Shown here: positions 15-5,114 of the stretch, one piece after another | Numbering within the stretch: position 1 is the first letter of the stretch | Layout of the letters: every line of letters begins with the position of its first letter | Assembly: GCA_029289095.1 (NCBI GenBank) | Contig: JARFUG010000010.1 | Span: 1 to 64,000, forward strand | Direction of reading: 5' to 3' | Source: Desulfuromonadales bacterium | Lineage (GTDB): Bacteria; Desulfobacterota; Desulfuromonadia; Desulfuromonadales; JACZKF01 | DNA length: 64,000 nt | Program-made: the position numbers and the translations under genes | Notes under the pieces: model-generated | The model's input: the letters and a program-made list of their open reading frames with translations, nothing else | The model's database searches: none | What the model was told of the DNA's origin: nothing

Positions 15-587
15 CTACTTTTGCGCCCAGCCGCCGTTGCGCTCGAGGTACCACCCGGAGGCGGCGCGCTGGCGCCAGGTTTCGGCGAAAATCTGCTGGA
101 CCTCTCCGGCGCGGTCGGGGAAGCCGTTGGCGCGGGCGATCTCGCGGTAGAGGCGGGAGCGGTCTTCGTTTTCAGCGTTGACGAGGCGGGTCACCTCGCC
201 GCGAGCGCGCAGGTCAAGCCCTTCGGTGCTGCGCACCTTGAGGAAGCCGTCGGCGCCGACTCCGACATTCCCCGAGTCGAGGTAGGGGAAGAGGGAGCCG
301 GAGCGCTCGCGCATCGACTCGCGGATGGCGCGGATCTCGGGGGTGGTGATGTCGATGTCCTGCGCGGCGTAGGCGACGGAGGGGCCGAGGATCTGCAGGA
401 AGGAGGAACCGGGGTTGGCCGGAGCCCGCAGAGGCGCCCCTTCACGTCCGCGCTCGCCCCAGACCTCGTCGACGATGCGGTCGGCGGCGCCGCGCACCTG
501 CTCGGCGGGGAAGTAGATGTTGATGGTGACGCAGGCGGCGGCGAAAAGGACGAGAAGCAGAGGGGAGAGACGCAGGATCTTTCGCAT
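15..587 (-). CDS. DUF1318 / YdbL-like envelope lipoprotein
   Basis: A 190-residue protein with an N-terminal hydrophobic segment and a lipobox (FAAAC, Cys at about residue 19), so it is probably a lipoprotein. The C-terminal half (about 75-190) looks like the DUF1318/YdbL family, ending in the typical basic-Trp tail (NGGWAQK). Directly after the lipid Cys comes VTINIYFPAEQV, resembling the strand of E. coli YnbE (ITINMNV). It is downstream of the YdbH-like gene on the same strand, 281 nt away across a repeat. In E. coli ydbH-ynbE-ydbL form an intermembrane phospholipid transport system; here one protein may serve both small-partner roles (inference). Family fairly sure; function by analogy. 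Confidence 0.8.
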   Translation of the reverse strand: MRKILRLSPLLLVLFAAACVTINIYFPAEQVRGAADRIVDEVWGERGREGAPLRAPANPGSSFLQILGPSVAYAAQDIDITTPEIRAIRESMRERSGSLFPYLDSGNVGVGADGFLKVRSTEGLDLRARGEVTRLVNAENEDRSRLYREIARANGFPDRAGEVQQIFAETWRQRAASGWYLERNGGWAQK

Positions 588-868
588 GGCAAGGCACTCC
601 GATGACAGGTTGAGGATGGACAGAGCTGATTCTACTCTTTGACATGTTTAAAAATCAATTCGGTTGCGCACTTAACGCCAGCTAATGCCGGTATGTACTG
701 CTAAAGATGGTTGAATCTTGAACCAGGGAAAAGCACATTGGCCGCAGATGAACGCTGATGAGCGCAGATGCAAAGCAAAAACCGGAAAATACATGGACTT
801 GGTTTGATCTGAGCAAATCTGCGTGAATCTGTGGCCAAAATTTTGCCCATTGCCGGAGAGCCGGAAAA
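588..868. repeat. Intergenic gap with CAGATGAACGC-type inverted repeat
   Basis: This 281-nt gap holds no convincing gene. Two arms, about 738-770 and 806-838, are imperfect reverse complements beginning TTGGCC(G/A)CAGAT, with roughly 11-nt internal periodicity of CAGAT/GCTGAT units. Related short copies occur near 5250-5340 and 15098-15130. This type of interspersed repeat is common in deltaproteobacterial intergenic regions. A transcript from either strand could fold into a long hairpin between ydbH-like and ydbL-like. Confidence 0.65.
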
Positions 869-3800
869 TCAATTTCTTCCCGCACCCCCTGTGCGGTCGA
901 TGCGCTGCAGGCGGTTGATCATCTCTTTGAAGGAGATGGCATGCTCGGGGGCGATGATGTTGATCTTCGGCGGGAGGAGGCCGCCGTCGACCAGATAGCG
1001 TTCGTCGCCGTCGCGGGCCGTTCCGGTGAGGACGAAGACGTCGTTGCGCAGGGTGCAGTGCAGCCCGATCTTGCGATAGCGGTAGAAGTCGATGAAGCGG
1101 TAGATCCCGCGGGAGAGGACCCCCGCGAGCCCCCCCTGGCTGATGGTGGTGATGTTGCGCACCGCGGCGACGCTGATGTTGCGCTGACCACGGGTGCGCG
1201 TCTCGAAGGAGGCCTCGAAGTGGGAGGGGACGGCGCCGAAGAGGCGCAGCTCGTGGATGTAGCCGTCAGCGATGCCGTTGACCTCTCCGAACTCGAAGGC
1301 GGCGGTCACGAGGCGCAGGTCGACCCCGGTGAAGTCGACGTCGAGGCTCGAGGTCATGTAGGAGGTGAAGAGAGATTCGAGCCGCAGGTTTCGCACCCGG
1401 AAACGGCCGCCGAAGGCGTCGATCTTCATCTCCCCGTCGGTGGTCAGCGTCCCGCCTCGGTACTCGATGCGCCCGAGATCGGCCGAGAGACCGCCGGCAA
1501 GCTCGACCGTCCCGAGCTCCCGCGTCAGTTCCCCGAGATCGACGTTGCGCACCAGAAGAACGGCGGAGAAACCGGGAGCACCTTCGGAGAGCTCGGCCTT
1601 GGCGCCTGCGATCTCCACCTCCCCCCCCGCGATGGCGAAGACGAGGGGATCGACGAAGTCGAAGCGCCCGGGGGCGCTCCTGACTCTCAGCTGCTGTGCG
1701 CGCAGCTCGGCCGCCCCGTAGGCCAGCCGGGCCAGGGAGAGATTCCCGTAGCGCTCCTCGCCGGCGCCGGCATCACTGCCGAGGTCGAAGGGGAGAACCC
1801 CCGACAGACCGGAGAGATGAAAGCGGGCCGCCTCCATCCGCAGGTCGAGCCCGCGCGGCTCGGCGCTCCCCTGCAGGCGCCACCCCTCTTCGTCCCGCCG
1901 GAAGCGCGCCTCGAGGCCGAGCCCTCCGGCGAGCGCGGTCTGCCTCACGACCGGAAAGCTCTCCCCGAGCACCTCCAGACGTTCGCGCCCCCTGCGCAGG
2001 TCGGGCAGGCTCACCGTGGCGGCGAGATCGATCCGCACGGGATCGAGCGTCCCGCGCAGCTCGGCCTCTCCGACCTCGGGGAGAGTCGCCGAAAGGCGCT
2101 GCGCCTCGAGGCGCTGCGACTCGGGGTCGTAGCGCCCCTGCAGCCGAAGCTGCGCCGGGAGGGAGGAGAGATCGGCATAGAAGGCGCCGTGCAGCACCTC
2201 TCCCCCGTCGGCCTCGAGGTGAAGATCGAGGCTCACCGGGGCGCCGAATCTCCCCTCGGCGGCCCCCCGGCCGCGCACCGCCGCCCCGGATATCCCGGAG
2301 TGGCCGTCCGGCGAGATGTATTCGATCCCCTCGGCGGAAAAGCGATCGAGGGCGATGCGAAAGCGCTCTCCCTCCACCTCGGCCCGCCCCGACGCGGACA
2401 GAACGGCCGAGGGGATCTCCTCCCCGCTCACCCGCGCCGACAAGTCCCCGCCACGGAGGATCGTTTTCTCCCCCTGCCGTGCGAAGCGCCCTTTGATGCG
2501 GACCTCTTCAAGGAGCGCCGGAGGCAGGGGAACGCGGGCGGCCGTCGCCTCGATCTGCGCGTCCCAGCCGTCGTGCTCCGGCCGCAGGTGAGCGGTCCCG
2601 GCGATCCTCTCGGCCCCCTCCGGAATCCCGGAGCGCATCTCCGCCGGAAGCAGGGGGAGGATTTCCCGGGCATCGACCGGATGGAGCTGCACCGTCATCC
2701 CCTGCAGATCCCCCGCGGCGCGAACGACCGTGCGCCCGCGCAGGCGGAAGGTCGCCTCCCCGGAGTACGCCTCCCCTTCGCTCCGGAAGAGTAGTTCGGC
2801 AGCGAGATCCGAGATGTCGGGGAGGTCGCTCTGCATGCGTGGGGCGGGAGTTCCGGCCAGGGCGGCTTTTACACGCAGCCCCCCTTCCGAGGCGCTGAAC
2901 TCTCCCTCTCCCTCGATCCCCCCCGAGACCTTCGGCCAATCCCCCCCGGCCAGCGCCTCCAGCAGGGCGGCGGGGTCGGCGGAGCGGATGGTGAAACTCC
3001 CCTGCGCTTCCCCATCCGCAAGGCGTCCGGAAAGGCGAAGGGGCGCCTGGTCGGCCAGGAGCATCTCCCCCTCTCCTTCCCAGAGATCCCCTGCCCCTTC
3101 GCCCTGCAGGCGAAGATCGCGCGCGAAGAGGTCGAAATCGCCTGCGCCCCCCGTGAAGCTTCGCGCCGTCACCGCGACCCTGAGCCGCTCGTCCATCCAG
3201 GCAAAGGAGAAGCGAACCCCTTCCAGGACGAAGCGCCCCTCCGGCGGCAGGGGGGAATCGATCTCCAGGACCGCCAGGATGCGGCCGAGTTGGACCTCGT
3301 CGAAGCGTTCGATGGCGATCCCCCCCTCGGCGCCGGCCCCTTCTGCGGGGAGCGTCACGACCAGGGGAGAGGTAAGGAGTTCGTCCCCCTCGAGCTTCGC
3401 CGAATCGAGAGTGACGGACGGCGCTCTCCCCCACGACAGCCGACCGTGGGTCGCCAGGGGGAGCCCAGGCGCCGCGCCGACGCGGGCGCTGAGAAAGAAG
3501 GGGGTTTCCTCATCGAGACGCCCCTGCAGATGGAGCTCATCAACAGACCAGGTGCGCCCCGCCGCGTGCAGCGTAAGACGCCCCCCGACGATCTCCACGC
3601 GCTCGACCGTCACGGGGGGACGCTCGGGCAAACCTCCCCCCTCTTCTTCGCTTTCGGTAAGAACGATGTCGGGCGCCGTCACGCGAAGAGCGGCGAGGCG
3701 CCGGGAAAAAAGATCGGAGAGCAGGAAGTCGGCCTCCAGGCGTTCGGCGTTCAGACGCAGGGAGGGAAGATCGAGGGTGATGTCGGAGATTTCGAGACGG

Positions 3801-3985
3801 TCCCGGCCGAGAAAGATCCGCCCGAGGCGCACCTCTCCCTCCATCTGCTCGCCAAGGTAGCGCTCCAGGTGCGGACGCACCACCGTGTTCAGGCCCGTGT
3901 CGGAAAGGAGATAGACCAGGATCCCCAGAAAGAGCAGGGGCGGAAGGAGAAAAGCGATGACGATGATCAGGCGCCTGCGTGTCAT
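869..3985 (-). CDS. YdbH-like AsmA-family envelope protein
   Basis: A 1038-residue protein with one N-terminal membrane anchor (about residues 6-28, Arg-rich just before it) and a long periplasmic body rich in short beta strands, as expected for AsmA/TamB-type lipid-transfer bridges. The C-terminal 250 residues (from about ELTRELGTVELAGG) match the style of the YdbH domain. Known: E. coli YdbH acts redundantly with TamB and YhdP in moving phospholipids to the outer membrane. The DUF1318/YdbL-like lipoprotein next door supports this. Base composition is very GC-rich, which produces long shadow ORFs on both strands. The exact subfamily is inferred; TamB-like is the main alternative. Confidence 0.75.
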   Translation of the reverse strand: MTRRRLIIVIAFLLPPLLFLGILVYLLSDTGLNTVVRPHLERYLGEQMEGEVRLGRIFLGRDRLEISDITLDLPSLRLNAERLEADFLLSDLFSRRLAALRVTAPDIVLTESEEEGGGLPERPPVTVERVEIVGGRLTLHAAGRTWSVDELHLQGRLDEETPFFLSARVGAAPGLPLATHGRLSWGRAPSVTLDSAKLEGDELLTSPLVVTLPAEGAGAEGGIAIERFDEVQLGRILAVLEIDSPLPPEGRFVLEGVRFSFAWMDERLRVAVTARSFTGGAGDFDLFARDLRLQGEGAGDLWEGEGEMLLADQAPLRLSGRLADGEAQGSFTIRSADPAALLEALAGGDWPKVSGGIEGEGEFSASEGGLRVKAALAGTPAPRMQSDLPDISDLAAELLFRSEGEAYSGEATFRLRGRTVVRAAGDLQGMTVQLHPVDAREILPLLPAEMRSGIPEGAERIAGTAHLRPEHDGWDAQIEATAARVPLPPALLEEVRIKGRFARQGEKTILRGGDLSARVSGEEIPSAVLSASGRAEVEGERFRIALDRFSAEGIEYISPDGHSGISGAAVRGRGAAEGRFGAPVSLDLHLEADGGEVLHGAFYADLSSLPAQLRLQGRYDPESQRLEAQRLSATLPEVGEAELRGTLDPVRIDLAATVSLPDLRRGRERLEVLGESFPVVRQTALAGGLGLEARFRRDEEGWRLQGSAEPRGLDLRMEAARFHLSGLSGVLPFDLGSDAGAGEERYGNLSLARLAYGAAELRAQQLRVRSAPGRFDFVDPLVFAIAGGEVEIAGAKAELSEGAPGFSAVLLVRNVDLGELTRELGTVELAGGLSADLGRIEYRGGTLTTDGEMKIDAFGGRFRVRNLRLESLFTSYMTSSLDVDFTGVDLRLVTAAFEFGEVNGIADGYIHELRLFGAVPSHFEASFETRTRGQRNISVAAVRNITTISQGGLAGVLSRGIYRFIDFYRYRKIGLHCTLRNDVFVLTGTARDGDERYLVDGGLLPPKINIIAPEHAISFKEMINRLQRIDRTGGAGRN

Positions 3986-4168: not shown

Positions 4169-5065
4169 TCACCTGCCTGACAGAAGCTTGCTCAGCAGCT
4201 CGTCCTTTTCGCGCCAGATTCCCTGAAGCCATTCCTTGTGGCGATTGCGCAGGCGGGTGTCACCGGCGTAGTCCCCTTCTTTGAGCTCAGGGTCGATCTC
4301 CAGCAGGCGGGCGCGCACGATCACCGGGCCGGTGCGTCCCACGAGGGCTTCGATGAGGCCCGGGCGTCCCTTGGGGTAGGCGATCGTCACATCGAGGATG
4401 CCGCCGAGGCGATCCCCCAGCGTCGTCAGGACGACGGCCGTCCCGCCGGGACGCGGCGAGAGGAGATGGCGGAAGGGGGAGCCCTGGTTGCGGTGCTTTT
4501 CGGCCGAGAAGCGCGTCCCCTCGGGGTAGACGATGAGGGTGGTCGGCATCTGCCTCGCCTTCTCGCAGGCGGTGCGGGCCGTCTGCAGGTCGCGCCCCCG
4601 CAACTCGGGCCGCCTCTCCACGTCCTGACGGCTATGGCGCTCGACGAAGGGGAAGTCGAGCCCCCACATCGCCTGGCCGAAGAGGGGAAGGCGGCGAAGC
4701 TCCTTTTTGGCGAAGAAGACCGGAAAAGGGAGGCGCTCGACGAAAAGGCGGATGAGCACCAGGATGTCGACCCACGACTGGTGGTTGCAGATGAGCAGGT
4801 ACCACCCCTTCGAGCCGTCGACTTCCGCCGGGATCTCGACGTCCCACTCGCGAGGAGAGAAAACATCGACGATGGCATTCATCGCAACGGCCCAGCGCAC
4901 CGCCAGACGCCGCATGAGAAGGGTGCAGACGTTTCGCCAGCCGGCCGAGGGGATCGCCGCCTTGACGGGGATCAGCAGCAGGAGCGGCAGAAACCAGAAG
5001 AGCGTGTTCACCGCCAGCAGAAAAAGGACGAGAGCCGCTTTTATGCCGAAGAGGAGGCTCGACAT
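4169..5065 (-). CDS. PlsC-type acyltransferase (YihG-like)
   Basis: 1-Acyl-glycerol-3-phosphate-acyltransferase-fold protein of 298 residues. N-terminal hydrophobic segments (about 5-35) anchor it in the inner membrane. The catalytic HX4D motif is NHQSWVD (His95, Asp100) and the substrate motif is YPEGTRF (EGTR 182-185). Length and layout resemble E. coli YihG/YihA-type acyltransferases. A longer reading frame to 5092 exists with a GTG start, but AAAGGAG lies 5 nt before the ATG at 5065, so that start was chosen. The acyl acceptor is unknown; phospholipid remodelling is the default expectation. Confidence 0.85.
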   Translation of the reverse strand: MSSLLFGIKAALVLFLLAVNTLFWFLPLLLLIPVKAAIPSAGWRNVCTLLMRRLAVRWAVAMNAIVDVFSPREWDVEIPAEVDGSKGWYLLICNHQSWVDILVLIRLFVERLPFPVFFAKKELRRLPLFGQAMWGLDFPFVERHSRQDVERRPELRGRDLQTARTACEKARQMPTTLIVYPEGTRFSAEKHRNQGSPFRHLLSPRPGGTAVVLTTLGDRLGGILDVTIAYPKGRPGLIEALVGRTGPVIVRARLLEIDPELKEGDYAGDTRLRNRHKEWLQGIWREKDELLSKLLSGR

Positions 5066-5114
5066 CGAAGCTCCTTTCATGAAGTTACTCACTGTACCAG
5101 TCTATCAAAGGCGT

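Follow-up and report, generated by a model that had tools for sequence, protein, structure and literature searches.

A stretch of 64,000 nucleotides from a Desulfuromonadales bacterium (contig JARFUG010000010.1 of assembly GCA_029289095.1; hereafter the window) carries near one end the gene of a 190-residue lipoprotein (15-587, reverse strand) and the gene of a YdbH-like protein (869-3985, reverse strand). The lipoprotein likely fuses an outer-membrane anchor of the YnbE type to a chaperone domain of the YdbL type, and likely works with a YdbH-type lipid bridge encoded beside it. The one chain that joins the YnbE-type anchor and YdbL very probably serves a bridge of the YdbH type. Many bacteria appear to join these two YdbH helpers in one outer-membrane protein, and one lineage appears to have split them again. 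The anatomy of the protein, the homology and fold of its YdbL domain, the gene linkage, the exclusion of ynbE and the natural splitting are all well supported.

The route of phospholipids to the outer membrane is under active investigation, almost only in three-gene systems of the E. coli type, whose ydbH-ynbE-ydbL intermembrane bridge was reportedly described by Kumar, Davis and Ruiz in 2024. Titles and opening lines of abstracts in the literature on YnbE, YdbL, YdbH and DUF1318 hold no description of a YnbE-YdbL fusion; the name DUF1318 itself turns up in a single paper, whose title points to another subject.

Anatomy of the lipoprotein and of the YdbH-like protein

The lipoprotein, which begins with ATG, contains a lipidated strand and helix, a linker and a DUF1318/YdbL domain in a single chain. 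Its signal peptide (residues 1-18; 534-587, on the reverse strand like every feature below) ends in a lipobox, ...LFAAAC19, and Cys19, which is followed by V20-T-I-N-I-Y-F26, is invariant in 51 sequences. The original prediction had pointed to a lipobox protein with the mature N-terminus VTINIYF, and this description is confirmed at the level of the family: C19, T21, N23, I24, Y25, F26, P27 and A28 are invariant in 51 relatives whose identity is as low as 37%. Since eight residues are kept without change at such distances, the CVTINIYFP motif is not a product of chance.

The AlphaFold2 model of the lipoprotein, which was built with 51 sequences, has a mean predicted local distance difference test score (pLDDT) of 88.1. 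Residues 19-27 (C-VTINIYF-P, 507-533), comprising the lipidated Cys and a putative docking strand, are extended and unpaired in the monomer, residues 28-50 (438-506) form a helix and a compact domain begins at residue 83. The linker between them is of low confidence (pLDDT 58-76 over residues 51-80) and includes the segment ILGPSVAYAA (residues 66-75, 363-392), a helix breaker followed by an AYA motif in the manner of a signal-peptide vestige. Residues 97-190 (18-299) score 61.2 bits with the Pfam DUF1318 model PF07027, whose cut-off is 27, and the best match of the model in the Protein Data Bank (PDB) is the crystal structure of E. coli YdbL, 28oj (Foldseek probability 1.00, TM-score by target 0.81, E 9.4e-3), so that the resemblance of the C-terminus to YdbL extends to the fold. 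YdbL modulates YnbE, which fits the name of 28oj in the PDB, 'probable chaperone-like protein'. As in YnbE, a lipobox is followed by a strand and a helix, and the gene adjoins one of YdbH type. Typically YdbL is made as a separate protein and secreted by means of a signal peptide of its own; in the window protein the domain is fused behind the lipobox module.

The YdbH-like gene, which the original prediction had rightly placed next to that of the lipoprotein, lies directly upstream and is separated from it by 281 bases (588-868). It encodes, from an ATG, an AsmA-type protein of 1038 residues, with an N-terminal helix (residues 3-27) that is likely an inner-membrane anchor, followed by a long repeated β structure. 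In its AlphaFold2 model (mean pLDDT 88.5) this helix leads into a long β groove. In hhalign comparisons its profile reaches 99.7% with the YdbH set from loci of the short-YdbL type and 99.0% with the E. coli-like YdbH set. A search of the PDB with the model gives generic β matches only, which are weak and are led by the lipid-binding ApoB100, and sequence searches of the PDB with the YdbH-like profile, YnbE and YdbH return nothing useful.

Linkage, exclusion of ynbE and the split form

The lipoprotein and the YdbH-like gene travel together. Homologues of the lipoprotein are present in 27 of 58 genomes searched, including the window's own and one with a DUF1318-only match, and those of the relatives are 51-71% identical to it. 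In the 26 stretches taken around the relatives' genes the fused protein occurs 25 times, with a YdbH-like gene inside the stretch in 23 of these 25. Two genomes have the lipoprotein with no YdbH-like gene adjoining it: in one (G011) a full-length YdbH-like gene is on another contig, and the other (G001) has a fragment at a contig edge. No full-length YdbH-like gene was found in 12 genomes that lack the fused protein, one of which (G002) has a weak DUF1318 match. The linkage holds at greater distances: 57 of 61 fused loci of the phylum have the YdbH-like gene upstream, and in 77 of 80 loci from named genomes it lies no more than 700 bases upstream. These 80, the best of 565 relatives, are labelled Desulfuromonadales, Nitrospirota, Thermodesulfobacteria-type, Beta- and Gammaproteobacteria and others. 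Two contigs with the fused protein are titled Chloroflexi (L200) and Klebsiella pneumoniae (L248), and are probably misbinned or mislabelled contigs of metagenome-assembled genomes.

Where the fused lipoprotein is found, a separate ynbE is not. In the phylum, 395 genomes yield 104 DUF1318 matches, and the 99 stretches taken (five already examined were left out) comprise 61 long lipobox DUF1318 proteins like that of the window, 27 YdbL proteins of the short kind and 11 lipoproteins of a third type; three rows first placed in the third type (L142, L153 and L158) are counted here as fused and keep the label of the third type in the tree described below. A YnbE profile matches in 26 of the 27 short-YdbL loci, none of the 61 fused loci and none of the 11 of the third type. 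It was built from 18 sequences to which 16 survey loci contributed, so that the positive counts are partly circular there and the zeros are not. The only short locus without a match, L083, starts at a contig edge. The same division recurs within the order (30 loci), where YnbE accompanies four of four short YdbL genes, none of 25 motif-bearing fused genes (L030-L054) and not the single long gene without the motif, and within the class of G484 (also 30 loci), where it accompanies 10 of 12 short genes (the other two being a split form and a contig edge) and none of 18 fused ones. In G007, a genome of the same order, the three-gene form consists of a YdbH-like gene, a gene for a small lipoprotein that contains HITIDVNVRV and one for a YdbL of 130 residues.

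Some loci depart from these types. One genome, G565, has a long and a short DUF1318 gene (on contigs C81 and C39), an exception to one per genome that may reflect contamination. The third type of lipoprotein, C-TLAxVxVxxxSERTALENQ(I/V)LGSYN, which likewise has no separate ynbE (L164, L171, L172, L175, L177-L179, L181 and L183-L185), has an AsmA-type protein of 1215-1498 residues directly upstream in 8 of 11 loci; this protein is closest to the AsmA-like set (99.3%), with 98.8% for the window's YdbH-like profile. A divergent subtype of the fused protein, with CAIITVNVYFPEKAVKEAYKSLDEMLL or CAVITVNIYFPARDVEKAYENLEDQLM, occurs in L154, L157, L159, L161, L162, L166, L168 and L180, and its YdbH-like genes have quite different C-terminal ends.

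In 13 of the 80 named loci (L237, L238, L239, L242, L244, L245, L249, L252, L254, L255, L258, L264 and L267) the two halves of the protein are separate genes. The lipoprotein frame stops once it has encoded 42-56 mature residues (CVTINIYFPAAAAEKAADKIIDEVWQ...), and downstream of it lies a YdbL gene, intact in all 13, that encodes a signal peptide of its own. The labels are Methylophilaceae, Methylobacillus, Methylotenera, Sulfuricella, Rhodocyclaceae, Leeia and unplaced beta- and proteobacteria, mostly Betaproteobacteria. These loci have the CVTINIYFP strand and helix, the upstream YdbH-like gene and the YdbL domain in common with the window, and differ from it in having two small genes instead of one, with a separate signal peptide on YdbL. 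By itself, the split form shows that the N-terminal module can be separated from YdbL. In a tree of the DUF1318 domain (149 of 192 rows; unrooted, with 136 columns, a small number in view of the rows), the 10 split rows group in a single clade (support 98) within a clade that includes fused gammaproteobacterial rows (99), itself within a larger fused clade (95), and the short YdbL rows fall on one side of a branch (99). Because the split rows are nested within fused clades, they probably arose by later fission of a fused gene, which is the simplest reading of these domain sequences.

The joint, the strand and competing explanations

The joint between the two halves has a distinctive composition. 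The start of the domain can be recognised in 121 of 137 distinct fused proteins (the other 16 were dropped for want of this anchor), and in 114 of the 121 an AxA motif lies no more than 12 residues before it, as against 153 of 1519 other linker windows (10%). Around these 114 sites, hydrophobic residues make up 0.53-0.69 at positions -11 to -8, and Pro or Gly occurs at -7 to -4 in 84%, compared with 54% of 500 control AxA sites. The layout is that of the end of a signal peptide, which makes the joint look like a former signal peptide of YdbL, and the retention of AxA may mean that cleavage still occurs there. The fused chain could then be a precursor, cut at AxA by signal peptidase I or another protease into a soluble YdbL and a short YnbE-like lipopeptide, that is, the same parts as in E. 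coli. The composition of the joint, its place in a low-confidence and otherwise variable linker, and the start of the split-lineage YdbL at the matching point all favour such processing. The preceding hydrophobic stretch is weak, however, with a best eight-residue mean hydropathy of 2.0 reached in only 23 of 114 proteins, and AxA could be an inherited relic or have a structural role; processing of this kind is a less likely alternative. It is doubtful, by a similar estimate, that the chain is a polyprotein whose cut at AxA releases a docking strand and a soluble YdbL, with this built-in site being the reason why the fusion was able to fall apart in Betaproteobacteria.

Several results weigh against identifying the pair as a YnbE-YdbL fusion with its YdbH. 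The Pfam YdbH model PF11739 has no match to the 1038-residue protein at E values up to 10, and hhalign also scores its profile highly with AsmA-like proteins (98.4%) and TamB (96.7%) in sets from the same order, in which the TamB control sequences are cut by stretch length and the control sets are thus partly incomplete. On the side of the anchor, the N-terminal module aligns weakly with YnbE in hhalign (probability 5%, P 0.0077), its strand follows Cys directly whereas the alignment of YnbE has a spacer between the two, and the idea that the lipoprotein strand repeats the last strand of its own YdbH was rejected for the fused pairs, with 447 of 500 permutations as high. The Pfam YnbE model PF13617 likewise has no match above its cut-off in the window's genome, and NCBIfam labels name neither YnbE nor YdbH. 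Because PF13617 also misses the evident YnbE of G007, this is not taken as absence; within the window itself, the best hit of the YnbE profile of this analysis is an unconvincing one inside a long open reading frame (E 0.046). The predicted absence of a separate ynbE accordingly stands for the fused loci of the phylum and of the relatives, where more of the flanking DNA is available to either side, and only in part for the window, which begins at the first base of its contig (C78), so that the downstream side of the lipoprotein gene falls outside the sequence.

Since AsmA-like and TamB profiles match as well, the 1038-residue protein is of the AsmA type, with YdbH as its closest but not exclusive relative; judged by its neighbours and nearest profile, and not by Pfam membership, it is YdbH-type. 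Single E. coli sequences were discarded as AsmA-family controls in favour of alignments, because the comparison was unfair and AsmA outscored YdbH. For the strand, 7 of 1000 permutations are as similar to YnbE, and a YnbE strand profile ranks the N-termini of fused proteins above the other lipoproteins of the set, true YnbE excepted (108 versus 76, Mann-Whitney P 1e-19, with rows that are not independent). Direct homology of the strand to YnbE is no more than suggestive. In the canonical loci (L088-L113 and E. coli, L187) the strand of YnbE is similar to the final strand of the YdbH it belongs with, with 0 of 500 permutations as high in 17 Desulfobacterota-type pairs and 7 of 500 in seven E. 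coli-like pairs, as if YnbE repeated the end of the bridge.

Because the direct evidence from sequence is modest, the assignment to YnbE relies on where the gene lies, on the exclusion of ynbE, on lipidation, on the shape of strand and helix and on the split form. The N-terminus might instead be a mere membrane anchor for YdbL, unrelated to YnbE by descent, with the YdbH-like protein using some other outer-membrane partner. The low hhalign probability, the missing Pfam match and the dissimilarity of the strand to the C-terminus of its own YdbH would all suit such an anchor. A mere anchor has no need of eight unchanging residues beginning at Cys, nor would it persist in 13 loci as a separate short lipoprotein where ynbE would stand in the operon, or exclude ynbE, and this explanation is unlikely. 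It is less likely again that the pair has a role outside phospholipid transport, such as the handling of outer-membrane proteins or lipoproteins with the AsmA-like protein as scaffold. Several roles have been proposed for AsmA-type proteins, for example TamB (PMC12045153), and the strong TamB and AsmA-like matches point the same way; against this, the nearest profile is YdbH, the partner domain is YdbL and the leading fold matches, weak and generic as they are, are to a lipid-binding protein. The fusion of a YnbE-type anchor with YdbL thus remains the preferred explanation, and the original proposal that one chain combines both roles is strengthened by the exclusion of ynbE, the 13 split loci, the vestige at the joint, the YdbL fold and the YdbH-like neighbour.

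Proposed mechanism and comparison with known systems

From this arrangement we infer docking, chaperoning, sorting and transport, which together would make a working two-gene lipid bridge. The lipoprotein would be exported and lipidated on Cys19; under the lipoprotein sorting rule, Val at +2 and the lack of Asp suggest sorting to the outer membrane. Through β-strand augmentation, the VTINIYF strand would dock where the YdbH-like groove ends at its C-terminus, and helix 28-50 would lie at the membrane, so that the bridge is closed on the outer-membrane side. A flexible linker would tether the YdbL domain in cis, this domain would stop self-association of the strand or steer its docking, and the groove would pass phospholipid between the membranes. 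In such a widespread two-gene form the anchor and YdbL would act at the same place and in the same ratio, and the system would be simpler to reconstruct. The fusion would also explain the seeming lack of ynbE in many lineages, and the split lineage offers matched natural constructs.

Next to the YdbH-like gene on its upstream side lies the gene (4169-5092, reverse strand) of a PlsC-type acyltransferase (PF01553), a possible link to phospholipid synthesis. The long intergenic region 588-868 holds GCAGATGAACGCTGATGAGCGCAGATG at 744-770, a single copy in the window that looks like the remnant of a dispersed repeat. The window's genome also encodes a TamB and an AsmA-like protein (G000:C138:26592-27611 and G000:C6:24148-26007), so that redundancy with a YdbH-type bridge is likely.

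The E. coli ydbH-ynbE-ydbL system and the window are alike in the order of bridge, lipidated strand and YdbL, in the nearest profile, which is that of YdbH, and in the YdbL fold. The E. coli system has three genes, while the window has two and joins the anchor and YdbL in one chain; its strand follows the lipidated Cys directly, and PF13617 and PF11739 are unmatched. YnbE is presented as the outer-membrane lipoprotein partner of YdbH in two reports (PMC12977461, PMC11784454), and strand augmentation between the C-terminus of YdbH and YnbE is proposed in a third (PMC12045153). The TamA-TamB and TamL-TamB systems also pair an AsmA-type bridge with an outer-membrane partner, and strand augmentation is proposed for them as well (PMC12045153). 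Their partner, however, is a β-barrel and not a small lipidated strand, and the TamB of the window's genome is a separate protein.

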